Shown piece by piece: positions 4,746 to 20,210 of a stretch of DNA of 22,207 nucleotides; the first letter of the stretch is position 1, and the number at the start of each line of letters is the position of its first letter. This DNA is from a virus, in IMG/VR virus record IMGVR_UViG_3300001460_000048, positions 43-22,249 of that record; one strand, 5' to 3'. The notes beneath the pieces were generated by a model that was not told where the DNA came from, did no database searches, and saw only the letters and a list, made by a program, of their open reading frames with translations. Both the position numbers and the translations under genes were made by a program.

Positions 4746-5705
4746 TTAAATGGCCTTAACTTGAGTAGAACACTTGGCTACACCCATGTATAAATCTGGA
4801 GAAAGTTCGGTTATACCATCAGATTTAGAGCTATTTATCCAACATCTTCTATAAAAGAAATTATCAACCAAATTAGGGTAAAGCCCACTAGGAATGGCAT
4901 TTTCGTTAAGCTCGTTCCTATAATTGAAAGGCATTGCACCTGACATAGCTATTCTGGTGGGGTCGAAAAGGAATATCGTTCTATCATTTTGGTAACTTAT
5001 TGAATCTAATAGGTTTTTACACTCCCAGTCATTTTCAGTAATAACATAAAAAACAACTTTACTATTTACCCATTGACCACCGCCAAGCTGGTAGCCCTCT
5101 AGGGATTCTGTTGGAACAACTTCTACGGCAATAGAAGGCAATTGAACTCTGGTTTGCCCCAGCATAGCCCAACCACCTGAGTTAGAAACCTGAAAACCTT
5201 TTTCGCTTCTAAAGGATCGTTGCTGTACCTGCCTAAACCAAGGAACCCCTTTCGACGGTATCACAGAAACCCACTTGTGACTATACTCTAGATGAACCTT
5301 ACTGGTGGTCGCTATAGCAGAATCAAAAACAACCCTACCATTCCTGTAATCAACGTAAAAAGGTTTAGTTACATTTCCAGTAGCGTAAAATTGATCGTCA
5401 ACAAAAACACCCGATATAGATACGGGTTGTTCGGCTACTCCATCTACGCCACTTTCCCAAACCCAGTTCTCTCTGTACCCCTCCCAAACCTTACCGTCTG
5501 TGTAGTTTGGGGTATCAACAGACCTAAGAACGTGCCTATCCCCACCGTATATACCGCTTTGAGGTATGCTAATATTAAAAAATCCACCACGATCTAGAAG
5601 ACCCCAATCATAAAATAATATAAAGTTGTCTTCTAGTATATTCGATATTGTTGAGTCTTGACAATTGACTAAGTTGTTCAACTTTGTATGTGGGCCACCT
5701 ACCAT
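4746..5705 (-). CDS. Neck or tail-completion protein of unknown family, 319 residues
   Basis: It sits between the 207-residue neck-type gene and the tail tube, where tail terminator or completion proteins are found. At 319 residues it is about twice the length of a usual tail terminator. It is beta-rich and aromatic: FILFYDWGLLDRGGFFN near residue 28, then YRENWVW, VFVDDQFYATG, FYVDYRNGRVVF and LPSIAVEVVPTESLEGYQLG. Three Cys are spread out (NCQDS, WECKN, AKCST) and no zinc pattern or catalytic motif is evident. AAGGAT precedes the ATG at 5 bases spacing. The gene is 9 bp from its upstream neighbour. The function is inferred only from position. Confidence 0.65.
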   Translation of the reverse strand: MVGGPHTKLNNLVNCQDSTISNILEDNFILFYDWGLLDRGGFFNISIPQSGIYGGDRHVLRSVDTPNYTDGKVWEGYRENWVWESGVDGVAEQPVSISGVFVDDQFYATGNVTKPFYVDYRNGRVVFDSAIATTSKVHLEYSHKWVSVIPSKGVPWFRQVQQRSFRSEKGFQVSNSGGWAMLGQTRVQLPSIAVEVVPTESLEGYQLGGGQWVNSKVVFYVITENDWECKNLLDSISYQNDRTIFLFDPTRIAMSGAMPFNYRNELNENAIPSGLYPNLVDNFFYRRCWINSSKSDGITELSPDLYMGVAKCSTQVKAI

Positions 5706-8287: not shown

Positions 8288-11200
8288 TTACATATTTAAG
8301 TGTTTTTTAATTTCTCTTATCTCTTTGGTTAAGTCTTGTATAGCACCAACAATTAAGGGTGCAAACTTACTATAGTCCAATGTTTTGAAGTCTTTATATT
8401 GTCCAGTCAATTCTGGTTGTATCTTCTCTATTTCCTGAGCTATAAACCCAATGTCTTTTCCTGAATTGCTGTGAACTTCCTCGTGACCTTCACGCCAATC
8501 AAATTCAACGGGGTTCATGGCTAGTATTTTTTCTAGCGAACCTTCTATGTTTTTGATCTTATCTTTAAGCCTTTTGTCAGAAATGCCACTCCCACCACCG
8601 CCACCACCACTAGAGGCAGCAGTAAGTCTTCCTTGAGCGTCAACAGTGATGCTTGCAGTCGTGTAAGAGCCAGCAGTCACCGCAGTGTGAGCTAGTTTGT
8701 CAGCGGTAACTTGATTATCACCAATATGAGCAGTATCAATAGAACCGTCTACATAATGCTCACTATTAATAGAATCATCTGCTATATTGTCTCCATCAAC
8801 ACAATCTCCCGCTAAATGAACGTGGTCAATTGAGCCATCAACGTAATGCTGACTGTCAATAGAGTCATCAGGTGGTGGTGATCCACCAGCCTCCCAGTTA
8901 GGAACGTTGCCATTCATTGTCAAAACGTAATTGTTGGCACCCTTAGCTAATCTAACATAGCTTGTACCGTTATGGTAAAGCATGTCACCTTCAGCGTCAG
9001 ACCCCACAGCAAAGCCTGCGGCAAAAGTCACTTTGCCACCATCTGCTATGGTCATAGAATTGTCGCCGTCAGTGTAACCAATGTTTGCAGTTTTTAATTC
9101 TCCACCACAATGAACGTCACCGCTAGAATATATATGCCCGTCTGCATCAAAGTCTTGAGACCAAACCTTTCGCCATCTTCTGTGAATTGAGTTTGAGTCA
9201 AATCCAAGATGCTCCTCTTTACTTGAAAGAGGGACGAACATTGCGTCTGAGAACGCGTAAGTATTTGTACCGTTATGACTGATATATAGATTAGTGCCCA
9301 CCTTTAGGAAGTTGAGACTATTGGTGCTATAATTAATCGTGTTTCCCTTGACAGTCAAGTCTCCACTAGCACTAAGACTACCATCTGGGCTAACACTAGC
9401 CACAACAACGTCGTTATTAGCGTGCCACTCTTGCAAGTTGGCAGATTGAGAAGCTGCTGCTTTTGCGATCAAGACAACCTTGTTAGCGGCTGTTGCGGCA
9501 AGGCTAGCACTTCCACCATTTAGAACGCCAGAGGCGTATGCCGCCACACCAGAAGTGTAAGCGTCAACCCCGCCACCACCAGCAGCAGCAGCCCATGATA
9601 TATCTGTTCCGTCAGATGTTAATACATACGTGTTACTACCTGCGGCCAACGCAGAAGGATTCCCACTAGAATCTCCTACAATTAGACTACCTCTAGTAAT
9701 ACCGGCCATTTTAGCGAGGGTTATTCCATCGTCCTTAACCCTTATCGCATCGCTGTTAGTTTCTATGGTAGAATCATCCACGTTGACAGCCATAACAGAA
9801 TTGGACTTTGTTAAGCCGTCACCCGCAAGCAATCCCGCTAAGTCGTCTGTGCTACCCTTAGATGCTGCTCCGGTTGCTCCTCCATCTAGGAAGATTAAGT
9901 TATCTCCGTGAGCTATTGTGGCGGCAGCAGCCTCACTAAGATCAACGTCTACCTGATTAGCCTGAACGTCTATAAGATTTCCTGCCCCTACAGCAAACGT
10001 TCTGTTGGCAGCTAGAGTTCCTCCACCAGTTAAACCATCCCCAGCAGTAAGGTCAACCGCCTGCGTAGCTATCGTGTTGCCAGATGAATACGCGGCAATA
10101 CCCGAAAGGTATACGTTTACATTGTCTGCCCAAGCAACATCTGTACCATCAGAGGTTAACACTTGATTAGCAACCCCTAAAGCTAATGCGGCAGGGTCTC
10201 CACTGCTATCGCCATATATAATCTTACCTCTAGCAAGACCAGCCATTTTCGCTAAGGTTATTCCATTGTCTTTAACTCTTATTGCATCACTATTGGTTTC
10301 TATAGTAGAATCATCTACGTTAACCGCCATAACCGAGTTGGACTTTGTTAAGCCGTCACCAGCGAGGAGGTTAGCCAGATCGTCTGTACTACCTTTGGAC
10401 GCTGCTCCCGTTGCTCCTCCATCTAGGAAGATTAAGTTATCTCCGTGAGCTATTGTGGCAGCGGAAGATTCGCTAAGGTCAACGTCTACCTGATTAGCTT
10501 GAACATCTATGAGATTTCCGGCTCCCACGGCAAACGTTCTGTTAGCCGCTAGGGTTCCTCCCCCAGTTAAACCGTCCCCAGCAGTAAGGTCAATCGCTTG
10601 CGTAGCTATCGTGTTCCCAGATGCGTAGTTCGCGATAGCTTGAGTGGCTATCGTATTGCCAGACGCGTAGGTTGCCACACCAGAAGTGTAAGCGTCAACC
10701 CCGCCACCACCAGCAGCAGCAGCCCATGATATATCTGTTCCGTCAGACGTTAATACATACGTATTGCTACCTATAGACAACGCAGAAGGATTCCCACCAG
10801 AGTCTCCCGCAATTATACTACCTCTAGCAAGACCAGCCATTTTTGCGAGAGTTATTCCATCATCTTTAACTCTTATTGCGTCACTATTCGTTTCTATAGT
10901 GGAGTCATCTACATTAACAGCCATAACAGAATTTGACTTTGTTAAGCCGTCACCAGCAAGAAGATTTGCTAGATCGTCCGTACTGCCTTTGGACGCTGCT
11001 CCCGTCGCCCCTCCGTCTAGAAAGATTAGGTTATCCCCGTGGGCTATTGTAGCGGCAGCAGATTCACTAAGATCAACGTCTACCTGATTAGCCTGAACGT
11101 CTATAAGATTTCCGGCTCCCACGGCAAACGTTCTATTGGCCGCTAGAGTTCCTCCTCCGGTTAATCCGTCTCCAGCGGTAAGGTCAACCGCTTGCGTGGC

Positions 11201-14200
11201 TATCGTATTTCCAGATGCGTAGTTCGCAATAGCTTGCGTAGCTATCGTGTTCCCAGATGCGTAGTTCGCGATGGCTTGCGTGGCTATCGTATTACCAGAC
11301 GAATACACTGCAATGCCCGAGATGTACGTATTTACATTGTCTGCCCAAGAAACATCTGTGCCATCAGAGGTTAATACTTGGTTAGCAGCACCCAGAGCTA
11401 GTGCGGCAGGGTCTCCGCTGCTGTCACCGTAAATAATCTTACCTCTAGCAAGGCCAGCCATTTTCGCCAAGGTTATTCCGTTGTCTTTAACCCTTATTGC
11501 ATCACTATCGGTTTCTATGGTAGAATCGTCTACGTTAACCGCCATAACCGAGTTGGATTTTGTTAGACCGTCACCAGCGAGAAGGTTAGCCAGATCGTCT
11601 GTGCTACCCTTAGAGGCCGCTCCAGTGGCTCCTCCATCTAGGAAAATTATGTTGTCTCCGTGAACTATTGTGGCAGCGGAAGCTTCGCTAAGATCAACGT
11701 CTACCTGATTAGCCTGAACATCTATGAGATTTCCGGCTCCCACGGCAAACGTTCTATTAGCTGCTAGAGTTCCTCCTCCGGTTAAGCCGTCTCCAGCAGT
11801 AAGGTCAACCGCTTGCGTAGCTATCGTGTTCCCAGAGGCGTAGTTCGCGATGGCTTGAGTAGCTATCGTGTTCCCAGAGGCGTAGTTCGCGATGGCTTGC
11901 GTGGCTATCGTGTTACCAGATGCGTAGGCTATGTTTGTCTCGTTAGTGATCGCCAACCCAGAAGCGTAATTAACCCTTACACTATTTGTAGAAATGTTGG
12001 ATGTGTTTGTTGAGATGTTCGACGTATTCGTAGCTATTGCGGTTTCGTTTTCGATGGCCTGACCTGACGCATAAGCTAGACCCAACTCATTGGTTATAGC
12101 TAGACCCGAAGCATAGTTGGCGATACCTTGAGTGGCTATCGTATTTCCAGAGGCGTAATTAGCAACACCAGAAACATAGTTAAAATCTGCCGCACTAACA
12201 TCACCACCGCTACTTTCGGCTTCCCAGTTTGGAACATTTCCGTTCATCTTGAGAATGTAGTCGTTTGTGCCTTTAGCCAACCTAACAAAACTTGTGCCAT
12301 CGTGGTAAAGTAGGTCACCTTCTGCGTTTGACCCAAAGGCGATGTTCGCTGTGTTGCCCGAAGCGTAGGCTATAAGACCATCGTTTAATATGGTGTTACC
12401 GGAGGCATAGGCTACGTTTAACTCGTTAGTAATAGCGAGCCCGGAAGCATACGTTGCTATTCCAGAAGTGTAAACATCTACATTACTGCCAGCAGCTACG
12501 CCAGACACGTAAGATATGTCGATTTCATTCTGTATAGCTTGACCAGACGCGTATGTCACCCTAGCAGTATTAGTAGAGATATTTGTAGTATTAGTAGAAA
12601 TATTTGAGATATTAGTAGCAATAGCCGTTTCATTTTCTATCGCCTGACCGGACGCATAAGACACGTTTAATTCATTGGTAATAGCCAACCCAGAAGCATA
12701 GTTTACCCTACCCGTGTTGGTAGAAATATTACTCGTGTTTGTAGATATGTTTGATACGTTAGTAGCTATCGCAGTTTCGTTTTCTATTGCTTGACCAGAA
12801 GCGTAGGTTATTCTACCACTATTAATAGAGATGTTTGAAGTATTGGTAGATATATTTGACGTATTGCTAGAAATGCTGGACTTGTTAGCAATAGCTTGCC
12901 CCGAACTATAAACAGCGATGCCCGAAACGTAAGTGTCGTCATAGACAGAACCAGCCGCTACACCAGAGACGTAGGCTATATCAACTTCGTTGGCAATCGC
13001 TTGGCCTGAACTATAAACCGCGATACCCGAAACGTAAGTGTCATCGTAAGCAGTGCCAGCCGCTACACCAGACACGTAGGCTATATCAGACTCGTTTATT
13101 ATCGCTTGACCAGAAGCGTAAGAAATCTGATCACTTAAAGAAAGTCCATTCCAATAAAGTGAGCCAGATATATTATAAAGGGCACTACCTGTGATATTAG
13201 GAGTGGAACTATCCAGCCTTAAACCTTCACCGCTAGCCGCTATACCATTAGCTAAAATAGTACCTGAATTACTAACCGAAGCTATAGACTGGCTATCAAA
13301 CGTACGCCACTGAGTTAAATCGGATGATTGCAGAGAAGCACCTTGAACCACAATACCATTATCTGTTGATGAATTTACTCCAACATAAAATGTATCAGAA
13401 AGCGTTACATCAGACTTACCTACTGCTAGCCTTTTCGTGCTAAAATCACCCTTTATTAAAGTACCTTCGGAGGAAGGCTGATCGTCTGCAATAAAAAGCA
13501 TATCATTTAAAGTATTGCCTTTGCCTGACTTTTTACCTAAGTATATAGAGGTATTACCAGAAGAACCCTCGCCTGACAACTCACCCAATCCTATAGAATT
13601 TATAGCAGAAGAAGTACTTTTGCCAGCTTCTTTGCCTATCCACACAGAGGATTCGCCACCACCGTCTTTAGCCGATCTGTATCCAATGGCTATCAAATAA
13701 TCGCCTTCGTGGTTGTTTGCCGCTTCGTAACCACCAACAAATGCGTAGTTACCAACACCAGAGCCAGAAAAAGAACCTATTGAAACGTGCCCTCTAGAAT
13801 AAGCGGCTGCACCAGCCTCAAAACCAATATTAACGCTATCATCTCTAGATTTTTCACCAGCTTGGTATCCTACGTTTACCGTTCTGGACACGGATATACT
13901 GGCGTTTGCGTCTGACGGGCCAGCTAAATCTCCAATGCTTACATTCTTGAAGCCTTGCTGGTTCTTGTGACCTGCGTCAGTACCAATATTAGTGTTTGAA
14001 GTTCCTGAAGTTATCCCGCTACCAGCACCGTAGCCTATTAATGTATTTCTTGAGTTAGATGGACCAGAAGAATCTCCAATAACCAAACTTTTATTTGTTG
14101 TATTAAAATCTATAAGGTACTGACTTGATGCAGTACCCTGTAGATTTACATCTGTTAATTCTACAATTTTAGCTTCTTTGAATTTAGTTCCGTTGCTAAA

Positions 14201-14542
14201 AATCAATCCAGAGGCACCAACAACAATCTGTGACTCTAAGTCCCTTATAATACTTTTATCTGCTGGGTAGGTTACAAAAACCGCACCACTCCCACCCAAT
14301 TCTATTTTGTTTCCACTGTTTGAGCTAGACAAAATGTGAAAACGCTCAAGGTTGTCAGAACCATAAACTCCGACACCTACTTCAAATTTATCATTTTCTT
14401 CTATGACATAGTAAGTTATGTCGCCACTGGATAAAACGTCACTAAACTTTTTAAACCCCGGAAGATCACCAACTAAAGAAATGCCACCAACACCAGTACT
14501 CAGAGTGTTCTGTCTTATTCTATCACTTACTTTTAATGCCAT
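8288..14542 (-). CDS. Giant repeat-rich phage fibre with C-terminal S74 intramolecular chaperone, 2,084 residues
   Basis: Residues 1-105 (ALKVSDRIRQNTLSTGVGG, then YYVIEENDKFEVGVGVYG, SSNSG, VFVTYPADKS) match an N-terminal domain common in phage fibres and likely bind the particle. Residues about 165-350 carry NxxIGxxAG-type units like YadA/trimeric beta-roll heads. Residues about 475-912 alternate YASGQAIENE units with SNISTNT heptad-like stretches. Residues 913-1651 hold four copies of a 155-residue module separated by YASGNTIATQ units. An EGDLLYH-to-NWEA module occurs near residue 735 and again near 1850. A DGSID-rich stretch and poly-Gly precede the chaperone-of-endosialidase domain: SDKRLK (Ser1988, Lys1993), IGFIAQEIEKIQPEL and LDYSKFAPLIVGAIQDL. 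By family knowledge this domain trimerises the fibre and cuts itself off at the Ser. The gene is the partner of the 94-residue gene 2 bp upstream, and lies between head and neck genes, so it could be a head or neck fibre. The start follows AAAGG closely. Confidence 0.9.
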   Translation of the reverse strand: MALKVSDRIRQNTLSTGVGGISLVGDLPGFKKFSDVLSSGDITYYVIEENDKFEVGVGVYGSDNLERFHILSSSNSGNKIELGGSGAVFVTYPADKSIIRDLESQIVVGASGLIFSNGTKFKEAKIVELTDVNLQGTASSQYLIDFNTTNKSLVIGDSSGPSNSRNTLIGYGAGSGITSGTSNTNIGTDAGHKNQQGFKNVSIGDLAGPSDANASISVSRTVNVGYQAGEKSRDDSVNIGFEAGAAAYSRGHVSIGSFSGSGVGNYAFVGGYEAANNHEGDYLIAIGYRSAKDGGGESSVWIGKEAGKSTSSAINSIGLGELSGEGSSGNTSIYLGKKSGKGNTLNDMLFIADDQPSSEGTLIKGDFSTKRLAVGKSDVTLSDTFYVGVNSSTDNGIVVQGASLQSSDLTQWRTFDSQSIASVSNSGTILANGIAASGEGLRLDSSTPNITGSALYNISGSLYWNGLSLSDQISYASGQAIINESDIAYVSGVAAGTAYDDTYVSGIAVYSSGQAIANEVDIAYVSGVAAGSVYDDTYVSGIAVYSSGQAIANKSSISSNTSNISTNTSNISINSGRITYASGQAIENETAIATNVSNISTNTSNISTNTGRVNYASGLAITNELNVSYASGQAIENETAIATNISNISTNTTNISTNTARVTYASGQAIQNEIDISYVSGVAAGSNVDVYTSGIATYASGLAITNELNVAYASGNTILNDGLIAYASGNTANIAFGSNAEGDLLYHDGTSFVRLAKGTNDYILKMNGNVPNWEAESSGGDVSAADFNYVSGVANYASGNTIATQGIANYASGLAITNELGLAYASGQAIENETAIATNTSNISTNTSNISTNSVRVNYASGLAITNETNIAYASGNTIATQAIANYASGNTIATQAIANYASGNTIATQAVDLTAGDGLTGGGTLAANRTFAVGAGNLIDVQANQVDVDLSEASAATIVHGDNIIFLDGGATGAASKGSTDDLANLLAGDGLTKSNSVMAVNVDDSTIETDSDAIRVKDNGITLAKMAGLARGKIIYGDSSGDPAALALGAANQVLTSDGTDVSWADNVNTYISGIAVYSSGNTIATQAIANYASGNTIATQAIANYASGNTIATQAVDLTAGDGLTGGGTLAANRTFAVGAGNLIDVQANQVDVDLSESAAATIAHGDNLIFLDGGATGAASKGSTDDLANLLAGDGLTKSNSVMAVNVDDSTIETNSDAIRVKDDGITLAKMAGLARGSIIAGDSGGNPSALSIGSNTYVLTSDGTDISWAAAAGGGGVDAYTSGVATYASGNTIATQAIANYASGNTIATQAIDLTAGDGLTGGGTLAANRTFAVGAGNLIDVQANQVDVDLSESSAATIAHGDNLIFLDGGATGAASKGSTDDLANLLAGDGLTKSNSVMAVNVDDSTIETNSDAIRVKDNGITLAKMAGLARGKIIYGDSSGDPAALALGVANQVLTSDGTDVAWADNVNVYLSGIAAYSSGNTIATQAVDLTAGDGLTGGGTLAANRTFAVGAGNLIDVQANQVDVDLSEAAAATIAHGDNLIFLDGGATGAASKGSTDDLAGLLAGDGLTKSNSVMAVNVDDSTIETNSDAIRVKDDGITLAKMAGITRGSLIVGDSSGNPSALAAGSNTYVLTSDGTDISWAAAAGGGGVDAYTSGVAAYASGVLNGGSASLAATAANKVVLIAKAAASQSANLQEWHANNDVVVASVSPDGSLSASGDLTVKGNTINYSTNSLNFLKVGTNLYISHNGTNTYAFSDAMFVPLSSKEEHLGFDSNSIHRRWRKVWSQDFDADGHIYSSGDVHCGGELKTANIGYTDGDNSMTIADGGKVTFAAGFAVGSDAEGDMLYHNGTSYVRLAKGANNYVLTMNGNVPNWEAGGSPPPDDSIDSQHYVDGSIDHVHLAGDCVDGDNIADDSINSEHYVDGSIDTAHIGDNQVTADKLAHTAVTAGSYTTASITVDAQGRLTAASSGGGGGGSGISDKRLKDKIKNIEGSLEKILAMNPVEFDWREGHEEVHSNSGKDIGFIAQEIEKIQPELTGQYKDFKTLDYSKFAPLIVGAIQDLTKEIREIKKHLNM
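9590..10054 (-). repeat. 465-bp fibre repeat, copy 4 (type B)
   Basis: It encodes residues 1497-1651, from DLTAGDGLT to DISWA. The type B end is SLIVGDSSGNPSALAAGSNTY, followed by an Ala/Gly-rich linker. It has no insertion or deletion relative to the other copies. Confidence 0.85.
10127..10591 (-). repeat. 465-bp fibre repeat, copy 3 (type A)
   Basis: It encodes residues 1318-1472. The type A end is KIIYGDSSGDPAALALG, followed by VANQ and the DNVNVY linker. It has the same length as the other copies, with scattered base changes, mostly silent. Confidence 0.85.
10721..11185 (-). repeat. 465-bp fibre repeat, copy 2 (type B)
   Basis: It encodes residues 1120-1274. The type B end is SIIAGDSGGNPSALSIGSNTY, followed by the linker AAAGGGGVDAYTSGVA that is shared with copy 4. 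Confidence 0.85.
11196..11279 (-). repeat. 42-bp tandem units in the fibre gene (cluster between copies 1 and 2)
   Basis: Two adjacent 42-bp units (11196-11237 and 11238-11279) and part of a third encode YASGNTIATQAIAN-type 14-residue steps. They differ at a few positions. Confidence 0.8.
11342..11806 (-). repeat. 465-bp fibre repeat, copy 1 (type A)
   Basis: It encodes residues 913-1067. The type A end is KIIYGDSSGDPAALALG, followed by AANQ and the DNVNTY linker. Copies 1 and 3 are alike, as are copies 2 and 4. Confidence 0.85.
11817..11900 (-). repeat. 42-bp tandem units in the fibre gene (cluster before copy 1)
   Basis: Units 11817-11858 and 11859-11900 are identical except for one base (41 of 42), and a partial third unit follows. 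This points to a recent expansion by slippage or recombination. Confidence 0.85.
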
Positions 14543-14943: not shown

Positions 14944-15945
14944 TTAGAATGAAGCCGCAACAATTCGTCTGTTGTCTAGAACACCAAAGCCGTGCTCTGC
15001 CCAAGCGTAATACCCCTGTCTCTGAGAGCGGTGCATTGCAGCGTCAGGATGAACTTCAACTTCCATCTTAACAGGCATGATAAAGCTATCGTTAGAACCT
15101 TGGTCTAGACCGATAACTAGCTCAACGTCATTGGTGAATAGACTTCCACCTAGATCGTTAATAAAGTAAGACTGGTATTCTTGCTGAGTACCAAACTCGA
15201 AAACGTCGTGAAGATTGACACCGTAAATACGTGTCAAAGAAGCGGCATCGTCACCAGCTTGATAAATCTCTCTACGAGTTACTTCATCAACTTGGTCAAC
15301 ACCCCAGTTTCTAATATCTTCGATGCCTTCTGGAGACATGTAAATATCAGAAAGTCTTCCGTTAGCAGTAACACTGTTACCACCACCGTTACGTCGCATA
15401 ACAGTTTTCATCAAGCTGATAAGTCTCTTGGTGAATTGACCTTCAGCAGCGTCACCGTCATAAACAAGAACGTTTCTATCAACAGCAGCACTCAAAAGTG
15501 TGTGCCATCCGTCATCATTGGTTTTCTTTACGAAAGAAGCTTCTAGAGCTTGCATAGCTCTCGCAACAACTCCCCACTTTGCTTCTCGTGCATACTTGAG
15601 CAAGAAATCAATCGAGCTAGTAATTCCGAAAGTGTTGATCATTACGTAGTCACCTTCAACGTGACGCTCTGGAATTCTGCCATTTCCAGGATTTGTGTAA
15701 GCAACGTGCTCACCTTCTGTTCCCGGGGCAATCAAATCCAAAGGATACTCAGTTGAAGCACCCGGCTCAAGAGGGTCTTTCTCGAAAATAGGCGAAACGA
15801 TATCGCCAGATAAAACACCTTTACGAAGAGGTGTAGTTAGTGCCTCGGCAAGCTCTAGTTGAGCAGCGTGAGCGACATCAATCTTAGTACTACCTGAATC
15901 TTTAAGCAATGCTAAAAACTCAGGAGATGGTTTTTTGTTAGACAT
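14944..15945 (-). CDS. Major capsid protein, HK97-fold type, 333 residues
   Basis: It forms the icosahedral shell. The size, the place after the protease/scaffold and decoration genes, and the sequence layout fit an HK97-type capsid protein: an N-terminal helical part (PEFLALLKDSGSTKIDVAHAAQLELAEAL), an extended loop (DPLEPGASTEYPLDLIAPGTEG), a long spine-like helix (WGVVARAMQALEASFVKKTNDDG), and a C-terminal domain ending MHRSQRQGYYAWAEHGFGVLDNRRIV. No long cleavable delta domain is evident, which agrees with a separate scaffold. AGGAG lies 9 bases from the ATG. A strong terminator lies directly downstream. I have no direct sequence match to a named capsid, so the call rests on layout and place. 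Confidence 0.88.
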   Translation of the reverse strand: MSNKKPSPEFLALLKDSGSTKIDVAHAAQLELAEALTTPLRKGVLSGDIVSPIFEKDPLEPGASTEYPLDLIAPGTEGEHVAYTNPGNGRIPERHVEGDYVMINTFGITSSIDFLLKYAREAKWGVVARAMQALEASFVKKTNDDGWHTLLSAAVDRNVLVYDGDAAEGQFTKRLISLMKTVMRRNGGGNSVTANGRLSDIYMSPEGIEDIRNWGVDQVDEVTRREIYQAGDDAASLTRIYGVNLHDVFEFGTQQEYQSYFINDLGGSLFTNDVELVIGLDQGSNDSFIMPVKMEVEVHPDAAMHRSQRQGYYAWAEHGFGVLDNRRIVAASF

Positions 15946-15963: not shown

Positions 15964-16455
15964 TTATAGATTAGTGTTTGGAAGGTCTACGTAAAGTTTA
16001 GCGTAGCCATCTTCGTCAGCACCGCTTAGAAATTTACCGACAACTAGCTTTGAGCCATCTGCGTCTGTATCATCACTTGAAACATCAGCAATAGCAACGT
16101 TTCCACTATGAGCCAAGAACGCAGTTTCTCCACCAGAAGGTAAAGTACCTTGGATGTTATTAGTTACAACATAACCTTTTCTTAGCAAGGTGACTTTTCC
16201 ACCTTTTTGAACTTCATCTTTATGTTGATTAAGATGTTGTCTAGTAAGGTCAATGTTTACCATGTCGTTGATTAGAAGACCTACAGGAACAGCACCGGAT
16301 GGTACAGTCTTATAAGTAACTAGAGCAGCACCGTTGTCCATAGAAGCACCAGAACCAGCAGTGCTTTGCGAAGCAACGCCACCTCTTGTGGCAACTTCGT
16401 TCATGAAGTTAGAGATGTCAGTATCTAGTGTACTTCTGTCTGTTTTAAGAGCCAT
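15964..16455 (-). CDS. Capsid decoration/stabilisation-type protein, 163 residues
   Basis: It lies between the protease/scaffold and capsid genes, the usual place for head decoration proteins. A variable N-terminal helix (RSTLDTDISNFMNEVATRGG) is followed by a beta-rich part: VPVGLLINDMVNIDLTR, KGGKVTLLRKGYVVTN, GETAFLAHSGNVAIAD and LVVGKFLSGADEDGYAKLYVDL. The pattern of a Gly-Gly turn, a VTLLRKG strand and a final VGxFLSxxDEDGYAKLxVDL fits small barrel proteins that bind capsomer symmetry axes. It is probably made in large amounts with the capsid protein from the same transcript. GGAG overlaps the end of the upstream gene, 8 bases from the ATG. Confidence 0.72.
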   Translation of the reverse strand: MALKTDRSTLDTDISNFMNEVATRGGVASQSTAGSGASMDNGAALVTYKTVPSGAVPVGLLINDMVNIDLTRQHLNQHKDEVQKGGKVTLLRKGYVVTNNIQGTLPSGGETAFLAHSGNVAIADVSSDDTDADGSKLVVGKFLSGADEDGYAKLYVDLPNTNL

Positions 16456-16458
16456 TGA

Positions 16459-17166
16459 TTATTCTCCCTCTTTTAGATTTTGAGTTGATTTTAATACGCT
16501 TGTTTCAAACCAGTTTGAAGCGTAAGCTCTTAGTGCATCTGCTTCTTCTTCTTGGTTATCTAGGTTTTGCAAGGAAGCTTCTGAGCTTTCAACAGCTTCA
16601 GCTTCTACGTCAAGAGCCTCTTCTTCGTCAGAAGCTTTGCTCTTATCGTCTTCGTCTTCCTTGTCTTCGTCTTCTTTTTTCTCTTCCACTTTCTTCTTGA
16701 TGAAATCAGGCATTTCGGCCTTCTTTTTCATTGTTGCAACGATGTTTTCAAAAATTTCTTCTGAAACATCTTCAAATGTTGCAATAGTAGCTTCGCAGTC
16801 TTCATCGCTGAATCCGATTTCGCTAAGTTGGGCTTTACGCTTCATCATAGCTTCTTTCTTTTTCATAGTTGCGAGTTTCTTGTCTTTTTCCATCATTGCT
16901 TCTTCTTTGTCTTTAAGCTCTTCTTCTTTTTTAGCCAAAGACTCGTTCAAGCTCTCAATCGAGGACTTAAACTCTTCTGCTTGCTCAGTAGCTTTTGCGA
17001 CTTCTTCTTGCTTTTCGGCAAGGGAAGATTCCAAGTTAGAAATCTGTGATTCAAACTCAGCTTTTTGCTCTGCTACTACTTTCTCTTTAAGGGCTTCATT
17101 AGCAACTTTTGCTTCCGATAGCTCCTGTTTAAGAATTGAGACTTGATTCTCTAATTCAGTTGACAT
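16459..17166 (-). CDS. Nested scaffold product from an internal in-frame start (candidate), 235 residues
   Basis: The ATG at 17166 (Met270 of the long protein) begins MSTELENQVSILKQEL, the first turn of the coiled-coil domain. It is preceded by AAGGAG at 9 bases spacing, as good as the sites of real genes in the window. The Shine-Dalgarno bases code IKESYD, a spacer between protease and scaffold. This mirrors lambda, where Nu3 scaffold is made from a nested start inside the C protease gene. The nested product would give scaffold in excess over protease. The sequence signal is direct; its use is inferred. Confidence 0.55.
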   Translation of the reverse strand: MSTELENQVSILKQELSEAKVANEALKEKVVAEQKAEFESQISNLESSLAEKQEEVAKATEQAEEFKSSIESLNESLAKKEEELKDKEEAMMEKDKKLATMKKKEAMMKRKAQLSEIGFSDEDCEATIATFEDVSEEIFENIVATMKKKAEMPDFIKKKVEEKKEDEDKEDEDDKSKASDEEEALDVEAEAVESSEASLQNLDNQEEEADALRAYASNWFETSVLKSTQNLKEGE

Positions 17167-17973
17167 GTCGTAACTCTCCTTAATCGAGGATGTTGTTAAA
17201 ATAATTGATTTGGACTGACTAAAAGATTCATTGCTAAGTATTAGACTTTCAGGATTGGCAGGGTTTGAAACTAAGCCTTTACCAGAGAACGATAAGTTTC
17301 GTAACATTCTGCCAACTCTATAGTTGTTATACTCTCCTTCGCCGCCATAGGCTCTTAAATGTTTAGTTAAAAACGCTGAAGCCTCATTCCGCTCCAAGAT
17401 GGACTTTTCTCCATCTGGACCTATCATAGCGTAGTCAAAAGCTGGAAATAAACATTCCATAGAAACGAACCACTTACCTTCCTCGATCTCGGAAATGATT
17501 TTACTCATCCTAGACCTTTGCTCCAAATCACTCCACTCTTTATAAATAACGGCTTTTGTGAGAATGTCGAAATCTTCAGGTAGATCATCTTCACTTTGAA
17601 TTTCCATACCTAACTTATCTACCACTCTATTGCCGGTTATATGTCCAATGATATCTTTTTCATTGTGCATAAAATTAAAAGGCTTGTCTTCGGGCGTTTC
17701 CCTAGCAAGCCATAGTTCTTTTCGGTCGAAAACATCATCATTCTTGTTCCAGCCAGTACTAACTAGCACGGACTCAAGATTGTATAAGTCAAATTGACCT
17801 TCATTGCCAGCCATACTACAGCCAATTTTTTGAAGTTCGTTATCAGTTAAAGATTTTAACTCAGGGAAAAGAACCTCAGATGTTTTTGCTATAGACTGGC
17901 AATATATAGAATTATTAGAAATCTGATCAGCTATGCCGTCAGATATTTCTTGATCGTATATATTTATATTCAT
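16459..17973 (-). CDS. Prohead protease fused to scaffold protein, 504 residues
   Basis: The N-terminal part is a prohead maturation protease and the C-terminal part a scaffold. The start at 17973 has GGAG 9 bases upstream; the ATG at 17988 overlaps that GGAG and lacks its own site, so I reject it. Protease signs are FNFMHNEKDIIGH (His103), FVSMECLF (Ser171) and the closing GLVSNPANPES (about 234-244), typical of the S78/U35-type His/Ser proteases. Residues 270-395 are a charged coiled coil (ELENQVSILKQELSEAK, then EEVAKATEQAEEF). Residues about 430-475 are very acidic (KKEDEDKEDEDDKS), and the C-terminus is helical with few aromatic residues. By family knowledge the protease removes the scaffold and itself after assembly. 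An internal start at residue 270 could make scaffold alone. It has its own promoter-like motif upstream. Confidence 0.9.
   Translation of the reverse strand: MNINIYDQEISDGIADQISNNSIYCQSIAKTSEVLFPELKSLTDNELQKIGCSMAGNEGQFDLYNLESVLVSTGWNKNDDVFDRKELWLARETPEDKPFNFMHNEKDIIGHITGNRVVDKLGMEIQSEDDLPEDFDILTKAVIYKEWSDLEQRSRMSKIISEIEEGKWFVSMECLFPAFDYAMIGPDGEKSILERNEASAFLTKHLRAYGGEGEYNNYRVGRMLRNLSFSGKGLVSNPANPESLILSNESFSQSKSIILTTSSIKESYDMSTELENQVSILKQELSEAKVANEALKEKVVAEQKAEFESQISNLESSLAEKQEEVAKATEQAEEFKSSIESLNESLAKKEEELKDKEEAMMEKDKKLATMKKKEAMMKRKAQLSEIGFSDEDCEATIATFEDVSEEIFENIVATMKKKAEMPDFIKKKVEEKKEDEDKEDEDDKSKASDEEEALDVEAEAVESSEASLQNLDNQEEEADALRAYASNWFETSVLKSTQNLKEGE
17174..17181 (-). promoter_or_regulatory. 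Internal ribosome binding site of the nested scaffold start
   Basis: The minus strand reads TTAAGGAGAGTTACGACATG; AAGGAG is 9 bases from the ATG. It lies exactly at the protease/scaffold boundary. Confidence 0.6.
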
Positions 17974-17995
17974 ATTTGTTTTCTCCATATGTGAT

Positions 17996-18046: not shown

Positions 18047-20158
18047 TTACAATTCTGCTACGTCCAAACAGAAAGCCTCTGAGTTTATAAGTCTCAACTC
18101 TTCAATCTTAGGATTTCTATTAAACGCATTTTTGAAGTCAAAGATCATAGCTTTTACATTGCTCTGAAACTCTTCGCTTGGAGTATTACCAGAGTTTATC
18201 AACTCCTGTATGACAATTTCAGATATTGGCATCATTGGTCGCATACCTGTAAATATACACAATTTGAAGTACTCTAGCTGATCCACCTCGGACTTGGTGA
18301 GAGACCTAGCTGTAGACTTTGAGAATTTAGCTAACGCTATAGGGGTAACAATTTTTGATATCTCTTCTTGAGCTTTAACACCCCAGAGGCAAATTGTTGA
18401 CCTAGAAGCCTCCCCACTTCTTGGCAATACTACCTTTTCTTTTCTCTTTTGTTTATCTCGCGAGTTTTTAGGTCTTCCATTTTGGCCTTCTGGCTCATAT
18501 TTGTCGTTAGGAGCTTTAGACGATGGATTGCTAGATTTAGGCTCTGAATACGGTAAATTCAATTCCTCTAAGAAAACTTTCGTGTCTAGCTGATCTTTAG
18601 TTAACGCCAACTTAGCTATGTCATCTTTGTGCTGAGGATTGTAATACGGGCCAGCTTTTGGTGGCTTTGATTTTCCATCGCCTCTGTCTTTTTCTTCTCT
18701 TTTCACTCTAACCTTTTCTATACTTGGAATTTCACCAAATCTTTCTAGTATTGTTTCATCCGAAATTAAGCCTCTATCATTTAATTTAATGTAAAGCTCT
18801 TTCTGAGTTGACTCATCTGATAGAACTATTTCATCAAATTTTATAACGGCTGGAAGCCTAAAGCCCATAGCCTGCCTGACCATCTCAAGCTCTTTCCTCC
18901 AAAATCCAGAAATTATATCTCTACCGTACTCTAATCTTTCCACTAGAGTTTTAAGTGAAACAAAGTTATTGCTATAACCACCGCTAGTACTAGCACCCGT
19001 TAAAGTTGGCGGGATGCCCAATCCTGCGTATATACTTGTTAAAACAGGTTGATACTTAGCCTCTCCAAGAAACTTGTAAACTTGAGAGTTAGACTCTTTA
19101 AATTGAAGCTCTGGCCCCCAAACGAAATCCATAGTACCGCCACCAACATGACCAGCTAATTGATTTCTAAGTCTTTTTGTTGCGGCAGCAGTTGGAATGA
19201 TCTTGTGATCTAGGCTACCGAGAGTCCAAAGCCTTACGTTAGATATGGCACCATCAAGTGCTGCAATATCTGCTAGCTTCATTTTTTCAAGCATGATAAT
19301 GTCGTCCAATATGGCGTATACCATTGGGTTTGCCCAAGCCATCCAGTCGTCTTTTTTGTAAAAGTACATACCAACATCACTTAGCGGTATCTGTCTTTTG
19401 CCGCCCTCTAACGCGGATTTTACGTCCGGTGGAAAAATATTCTTGATACTATCGTTAGTCCTGATAGACTCCATCATAGCTTGATGAGTTAGGTCGTTTA
19501 TATTAAGAACGTAGCTTGGGCCATTGCCACTAAGCCTGCTTGAATTATTTGCTATGTCGATAGCCAAAGGATTTAAAAATTCATAAGACCAAGGTATTAC
19601 ATTTTTAGCGTAATTTTTATTTTGAACATTTACAAAGTTATCGGCAGTAGCCCTTCTTAAAGAATCAGAGGTCTTTTTATTTACCTTTGTCACATTTCTT
19701 CTTACTGGCACATTACCGCAACGATAAAGGTAATTTAGAAATCTTTCAGACCTTTCAATTCCATTTACTTGCTTAAACCAAGTTCTGTAGAATTTCTCAA
19801 TAGTTTTATTTGGGTGATATATATTCAAACCCTGAGAGGAAAAGTCACTCATCAAATCAATAACATTTCTAATTATACCAACTTTGTCATAAGCGGACAT
19901 GCACTGCTTTATGATTCTTTTCTGTCTTTTGGATATAGATTCGCCGGGGCGAAAGTAGTCGTAATCTGACCTCAAAAATCCAGTTCTTACGGATGTATTA
20001 GGCTCTATGTCTAAATAGCTAGTCCTTTGCCTGCTTCCGTAAGCCTGAGCCTTTTCCATTGGCCCGTAATCTTCTCCGACGTTACCAGAAAAAGCATCTT
20101 GCCTTTCATCTTCGCTGGCCCAAGTCTTGTACATTACAACTTCTTTTTTGTCTGACAT
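18047..20158 (-). CDS. Portal protein with a C-terminal extension, 703 residues
   Basis: The portal is the dodecameric ring through which DNA enters and leaves the capsid. The start at 20158 has GGAG at 6 bases; the ATG at 20164 touches the GGAG and is unlikely. The portal core is about residues 75-480: ISKRQKRIIKQCMSAYDKVGIIRNVIDLMSDFSSQGL (helical, domain entry), DWMAWANPMVYAILDDIIMLEKMKLADIAALDG, then the typical LGIPPTLTGASTSGGYSNNFVSLKTLVERLEYGRDIISGFWRKELEMV read in pieces, with a crown-like end. Residues 485-580 are basic and disordered (KREEKDRGDGKSKPP, KNSRDKQKRKEKVV). A further helical domain of about 120 residues (581-703) follows. Portals are often about 400-550 residues, so this tail is extra. 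It precedes the protease gene and follows the terminase, as expected. Confidence 0.9.
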   Translation of the reverse strand: MSDKKEVVMYKTWASEDERQDAFSGNVGEDYGPMEKAQAYGSRQRTSYLDIEPNTSVRTGFLRSDYDYFRPGESISKRQKRIIKQCMSAYDKVGIIRNVIDLMSDFSSQGLNIYHPNKTIEKFYRTWFKQVNGIERSERFLNYLYRCGNVPVRRNVTKVNKKTSDSLRRATADNFVNVQNKNYAKNVIPWSYEFLNPLAIDIANNSSRLSGNGPSYVLNINDLTHQAMMESIRTNDSIKNIFPPDVKSALEGGKRQIPLSDVGMYFYKKDDWMAWANPMVYAILDDIIMLEKMKLADIAALDGAISNVRLWTLGSLDHKIIPTAAATKRLRNQLAGHVGGGTMDFVWGPELQFKESNSQVYKFLGEAKYQPVLTSIYAGLGIPPTLTGASTSGGYSNNFVSLKTLVERLEYGRDIISGFWRKELEMVRQAMGFRLPAVIKFDEIVLSDESTQKELYIKLNDRGLISDETILERFGEIPSIEKVRVKREEKDRGDGKSKPPKAGPYYNPQHKDDIAKLALTKDQLDTKVFLEELNLPYSEPKSSNPSSKAPNDKYEPEGQNGRPKNSRDKQKRKEKVVLPRSGEASRSTICLWGVKAQEEISKIVTPIALAKFSKSTARSLTKSEVDQLEYFKLCIFTGMRPMMPISEIVIQELINSGNTPSEEFQSNVKAMIFDFKNAFNRNPKIEELRLINSEAFCLDVAEL

Positions 20159-20210
20159 CAACATCTCCGTTTAATAGTAATGGCAATGGTATTGCTTTCA
20201 ATTCAATACA

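Follow-up and report, generated by a model that had tools for sequence, protein, structure and literature searches.

The gene at 16459–17973 of the window, the whole 22,207-nucleotide stretch of viral DNA analysed here, very probably encodes two co-terminal capsid-assembly proteins, to judge from its sequence and those of its relatives. These would be a protease joined to a scaffold, of 504 residues, and the scaffold alone, of 235 residues. The nested-start design is already known from lambda and Mu. What is added here is a large lineage with this design, a protease of the gp21/herpesvirus type, and comparative evidence of selection. Maintenance of a nested scaffold start by selection across a large uncultured phage lineage is in this way shown with comparative data and not by analogy. 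The features of the gene are as follows.

16459–17973, minus strand: protease-scaffold gene, 504 residues (open reading frame; relatives)
17191–17973, minus strand: protease domain and tail linker, residues 1–261, of predicted gp21/herpes-type fold (alignment of 97 members; model)
17176–17181, minus strand: internal Shine-Dalgarno, AAGGAG (sequence, pairing score, codon tests in relatives)
17164–17166, minus strand: internal ATG, putative start of the nested scaffold (sequence; relatives)
16459–17166, minus strand: putative nested scaffold, 235 residues, with a long helix, a low-confidence acidic stretch and a C-terminal helix (sequence, model)
17974–17988, minus strand: GGAG-bearing leader of the long form, directly before ATG 17973 (sequence, pairing score)

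The long form begins at ATG 17973 and runs for 504 codons of the minus strand to a stop ending at 16459. The initial annotation had described an AAGGAG nine bases before an in-frame ATG at 17166, and read on the minus strand this is correct: AAGGAG at 17181–17176 is followed by a 9-base spacer and ATG 17166–17164, in frame with the 504-codon gene. The codon counts agree with the short form of 235 residues that had been proposed within the long form of 504, the first residue of the short product being Met270 of the long product and the stop being common to both. The placement of this ATG at the border between protease and scaffold also stands, as in the model of the 504-residue protein residues 225–270 are of very low confidence and are followed by a long helix, residues 272–385, that is mostly of high confidence.

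Starts were scored by pairing to the anti-Shine-Dalgarno, with exact spacing ignored. The inner site, at −9.5 kcal/mol, is the second strongest among the starts scored in the window, with only that at 2597 (−11.6) being stronger; it had been said to equal the start sites of the other genes. Of the 607 ATGs on the two strands of the window, 1.2% reach a score of −9. The long form's own start, at 17973, scores −6.4, less strongly than the inner site but better than an alternative upstream in-frame ATG at 17988 (−1.6) that would extend the product to 509 residues.

Relatives were collected from IMG/VR with four queries, each scan having at least 583–598 confirmed relatives of which the best 80 were kept, and four extra loci from genome contigs were added. 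The set is therefore a sample (the best 80 of at least 583 per viral scan), and some loci share one contig. The 321 loci correspond to 247 distinct proteins, of which 243 reach the Met at the border column; those dropped are L085, which is broken, and L269, L274 and L312, where the contig ends before the border. Thinning of the 243 proteins at 90% identity left 180 representatives. Relatives with protease and scaffold as two separate genes were sought because a split would be independent proof of the inner start, and none was seen among the 321 loci.

Short closed frames among the 321 loci are limited to L084 and L085. L084 (3668–4564), from a GC-rich cellular metagenome assembly, is a 321-codon stop-to-stop frame located after a 936-residue frame. 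Its protease domain is 57% identical and has a short tail in place of the scaffold; both the internal start motif and the scaffold are absent. L085 (5992–8885), in the Limnoglobus roseus chromosome, is a protease relative split in two by a transposase-like frame, and the frame downstream of the two pieces resembles the small head protein by eye. This locus may be read, partly by eye, as the decayed remains of a provirus, or of an element of that sort, in a planctomycete.

Ribosomes starting at 17973 would make the 504-residue protease joined to scaffold, and those entering at the inner Shine-Dalgarno and ATG 17166 would make the 235-residue scaffold alone. Both forms would presumably come from the same message, the short one by way of the internal ribosome site. 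By way of the coiled coil and C-terminal end that both have, the long form would assemble together with free scaffold, and this would bring a limited amount of protease into the procapsid. The protease would then cut the scaffold and itself, before DNA packaging. The site strengths hint at an excess of scaffold over protease-scaffold, the inner site being stronger in 103, weaker in 75 and equal in 1 of 179 relatives (L084 left out). The same counts would suit a variant of this explanation, not exclusive of it, in which the inner start works, neither form is made much faster than the other, and cleavage supplies part of the free scaffold. The inner site of the window is, however, clearly the stronger one (−9.5 against −6.4), and in lambda and Mu the scaffold is in excess; comparable rates are possible, but rather doubtful.

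Whatever the ratio, the two-product reading depends on the inner start. Loss of the Shine-Dalgarno from relatives in which the protein is conserved had been named as the observation that would count against such a start, and the motif is instead retained: GGAG is found 5–10 bases before the aligned ATG in 176 of the 180 representatives (less than 90% identical, sampled as the best 80 of at least 583 per scan). The expectation for a GGAG-ATG pair is 30.3 of 180 when the codons in the 18 upstream bases are redrawn according to the usage of each gene and the peptide is left unchanged, and among the other internal Met codons of the 180 representatives 5 of 1552 have such a GGAG. The inner Shine-Dalgarno-ATG pair is evidently not due to chance. 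In a 177th representative with the motif, L276, the GGAG is directly before the aligned ATG and also 9 bases before the next ATG, while L245 (GAGAGGA) and L247 (GAGAG) have weaker purine tracts at the border. The aligned Met of L084, which has no motif and no long scaffold, is probably a coincidence.

The border Met itself is present in 162 of 163 relatives from the first two scans and the genome loci. It is followed by Ser in 154 of the 180 representatives and by Ala in another 16 (170 together), and Ser or Ala after Met is usual at starts where the Met is removed. Two other Met columns, conserved in 55 of 55 members of the first sample, have no Shine-Dalgarno, their median scores being 0.1 and −3.3 kcal/mol where the border has −8.7. 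In the 114 representatives from the first two scans and the genome loci, Lys-Glu pairs at the border are written AAGGAG in 62 of 65 cases and elsewhere in 20 of 622.

The motif falls in two codon phases. In 92 rows it is the last base of a codon followed by GAG, mostly as Lys, Arg or Met before Glu, and in 84 rows it is a GGA codon and the first base of a GAR or GAY codon, giving Gly-Glu or Gly-Asp (two of the rows are Gly-Gly). Using a FastTree tree of the protease domain, from which the border was left out, at least 2 changes of phase and at least 8 changes of spacing are found among the 176 rows, the four motif-less rows being outside these counts. The motif codon column has the highest codon bias of the 483 columns scored (GAG in 92 of 92 and GGA in 84 of 84). 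Second is a Glu codon column in the stretch that leads up to where the start of the long form aligns, which is consistent with the ribosome site of the long form. Because the motif is read in two phases and its spacing changes, it is the nucleotides that are conserved and not the linker peptide. Comparison of the relatives demonstrates, at the level of sequence, that the inner start is under selection as nucleotide sequence. Other protease-scaffold genes can be tested in the same way, for retention of a motif across codon phases.

Low RNA structure was also considered as independent evidence for the start and was rejected. In 162 of 179 relatives (L084 left out) other places in the gene are more structured than the inner site, but the site is no less structured than synonymous redraws (93 of 179); the mean is −5.13 kcal/mol against −5.08 in the redraws, so composition explains it.

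The residues encoded at the motif, at 17164–17186 of the window, have a pattern as well, [IL]-x-[ED] being present there in 91 of 176 representatives compared with 15% of the acidic residues in the scaffold part. T4 gp21 reportedly cuts after triplets of this kind. The border could in that case be double-coded, with the bases as ribosome site and the residues as a cleavage site of the gene's own protease; the scaffold would then have nearly the same end whether translated from the inner start or cut from the fusion. This is improbable, as Lys or Glu in the first place of the triplet in 37 of 84 of the GE/GD group counts against it. It is far less probable still that the enrichment of the triplet is the whole of the matter, with the motif kept for the linker that it encodes (IKE..., which might be where the protease is released) and its likeness to a Shine-Dalgarno a by-product. 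The peptide varies by group (KE, RE and ME, or GE and GD) while the GGAG stays, the wobble bases are fixed, and redraws that keep the peptide give 30.3 of 180 where 176 are observed; the phase switch has already largely refuted this explanation. The position of the motif between a folded domain and a helix would suit slowing of ribosomes to aid protease folding, with no initiation, but this can hardly be its role as pausing needs no ATG at 5–10 bases, whereas here motif and ATG stay paired across the spacing changes and the ATG is followed by Ser or Ala as at ordinary starts.

Scans of the whole protein against families gave only weak, coiled-coil-type or unnamed matches, with no profile naming the C-terminal part as scaffold. 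In the 171 complete representatives the part after the border has 200–257 residues and a median net charge of −33. Its position, helix and acidity suggest that it is the scaffold.

In the first model, which covered all 504 residues, the protease part is of low quality (mean pLDDT 59.7). A model of residues 1–261 built with 97 rows has a mean pLDDT of 84.3. Foldseek comparison of this protease model against the PDB gave T4 gp21 first, as a weak match (E 0.044), and against viral models (BFVD) 11 matches at E 0.001 or better, the best being a 'Prohead serine protease' at 1.7e-07. T4 gp21 was also first with VIA-align (Z 8.2 over 141 residues, 4.2 Å), a Z of 8 being near the level that the tool itself calls middling. 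Ranks 2–6 were all herpesvirus proteases (VZV, two entries of pseudorabies virus, KSHV and EBV; Z 3.6–4.3), and a succession of six capsid-assembly protease entries among these model-based matches is unlikely to be an accident. The modelled fold supports a protease of T4 gp21/herpesvirus (assemblin) type and not of lambda's S49 type. H103 and S171 are invariant in the 97 aligned members and, by their order and conservation, are a candidate catalytic pair.

By sequence, the protease domain is a family of its own. None of the 97 protease domains matched the protease families of Pfam or PHROGs, where only scattered weak matches were found, and this lowers the claim of family membership by sequence but not the likeness of fold. 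A profile search of solved structures gave nothing relevant, and sequence profile comparison with T4 gp21, HK97 gp4, P2 gpO and lambda C (hhalign probability 0.2%) found no similarity. These negative comparisons are of little weight because T4 gp21, whose fold matches, also fails by sequence. A protein that no family library names gains a likely function here.

The protease-scaffold gene lies between the portal and the decoration/major head genes, and the neighbours in the window are the following.

18047–20164, minus strand: portal protein, the upstream neighbour (phrog_2739, 3.4e-05)
15964–16455, minus strand: small head protein, in place of lambda D (phrog_563, 1.3e-04; XM1 gp53 below cut-off)
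14944–15945, minus strand: major head protein (phrog_2522, 4.1e-09; phage G gp27)

Where the sequence leaves room for the gene in question, 172 of 177 representatives have the portal upstream; on the downstream side the small head protein is present in 160 of 162 and the major head protein in 133 of 134. Lambda has the same order of portal, protease-scaffold, D and major head protein.

The likeness to lambda C/Nu3 that was drawn at first holds for the design of the gene and fails for the type of protease. With a protease fold of gp21/herpes type and a nested design, the gene would therefore work like lambda C/Nu3 with a different protease, lambda C being listed as an S49 peptidase in a table of PMC10695390. 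In both cases the 3' end of the protease gene also holds the scaffold, in the same frame. The real Nu3 start is presumably at lambda position 5342. The lambda record (J02459, L322) has AGGAGG, four bases and an ATG at this position inside C. By eye, no strong ribosome site is evident for the nu3 start that GenBank gives at 5132, and the AGGAGG-4-ATG at 5342 is in the same frame.

T4 gp21 is the best solved match for the protease fold, and gene 21 has an internal translation start marked in the T4 record. That inner start gives a shorter protease, however, and the T4 scaffold gp22 is a separate gene. In P2 gpO the protease and scaffold are in one protein, but no sequence similarity to it was found and its record annotates one product. 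In herpesvirus UL26/UL26.5 a scaffold comes after an assemblin-type protease and is also made alone, as a co-terminal product; this short form is made from its own transcript, whereas an internal ribosome site is proposed here. Inner in-frame starts are shared with Mu I/Z and PaMx73, judging by their description. For the Mu-like PaMx73, PMC4378225 describes a scaffold start within the protease gene 27, in frame and with a Shine-Dalgarno, as in Mu I/Z, the proposed inner start there being a Val codon where that of the window is an ATG. The design common to lambda, Mu and, in the logic of the products, herpesviruses looks like a repeated solution for dosing the procapsid protease. No report of the gene of this lineage was seen in the literature on the nested-start design, including the available portions of PMC3224144, PMC3185693 and PMC5155283; the search subject was the design and not the lineage itself, and most subscription journals lay outside it.

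The window lies in a virus record of 43,447 bases. This record is probably a fragment because several relatives (L029, L065, L247, L267 and L297) sit on contigs of 95–159 kb. A protein search of 50,697 phage records (E 0.01) gave no match for the protein of the window, that of L160 or a 194-residue part of that of L247, and a plasmid search with the window's protein also gave none. Other proteins have remote relatives among named phages, the terminase being remotely like those of Bacillus phages Stills, Staley and Slash and Microcystis phage MaeS, and the major head protein remotely like Bacillus phage G gp27. Elsewhere, 8288–14542 of the window encodes a 2084-residue protein with many near-repeat blocks and a terminal Peptidase_S74 chaperone domain, which is likely to be a tail fibre or spike. 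In the portal frame the first ATG, at 20164, scores 1.7 kcal/mol and the ATG six bases on, at 20158, scores −6.6, the latter being the likelier portal start.
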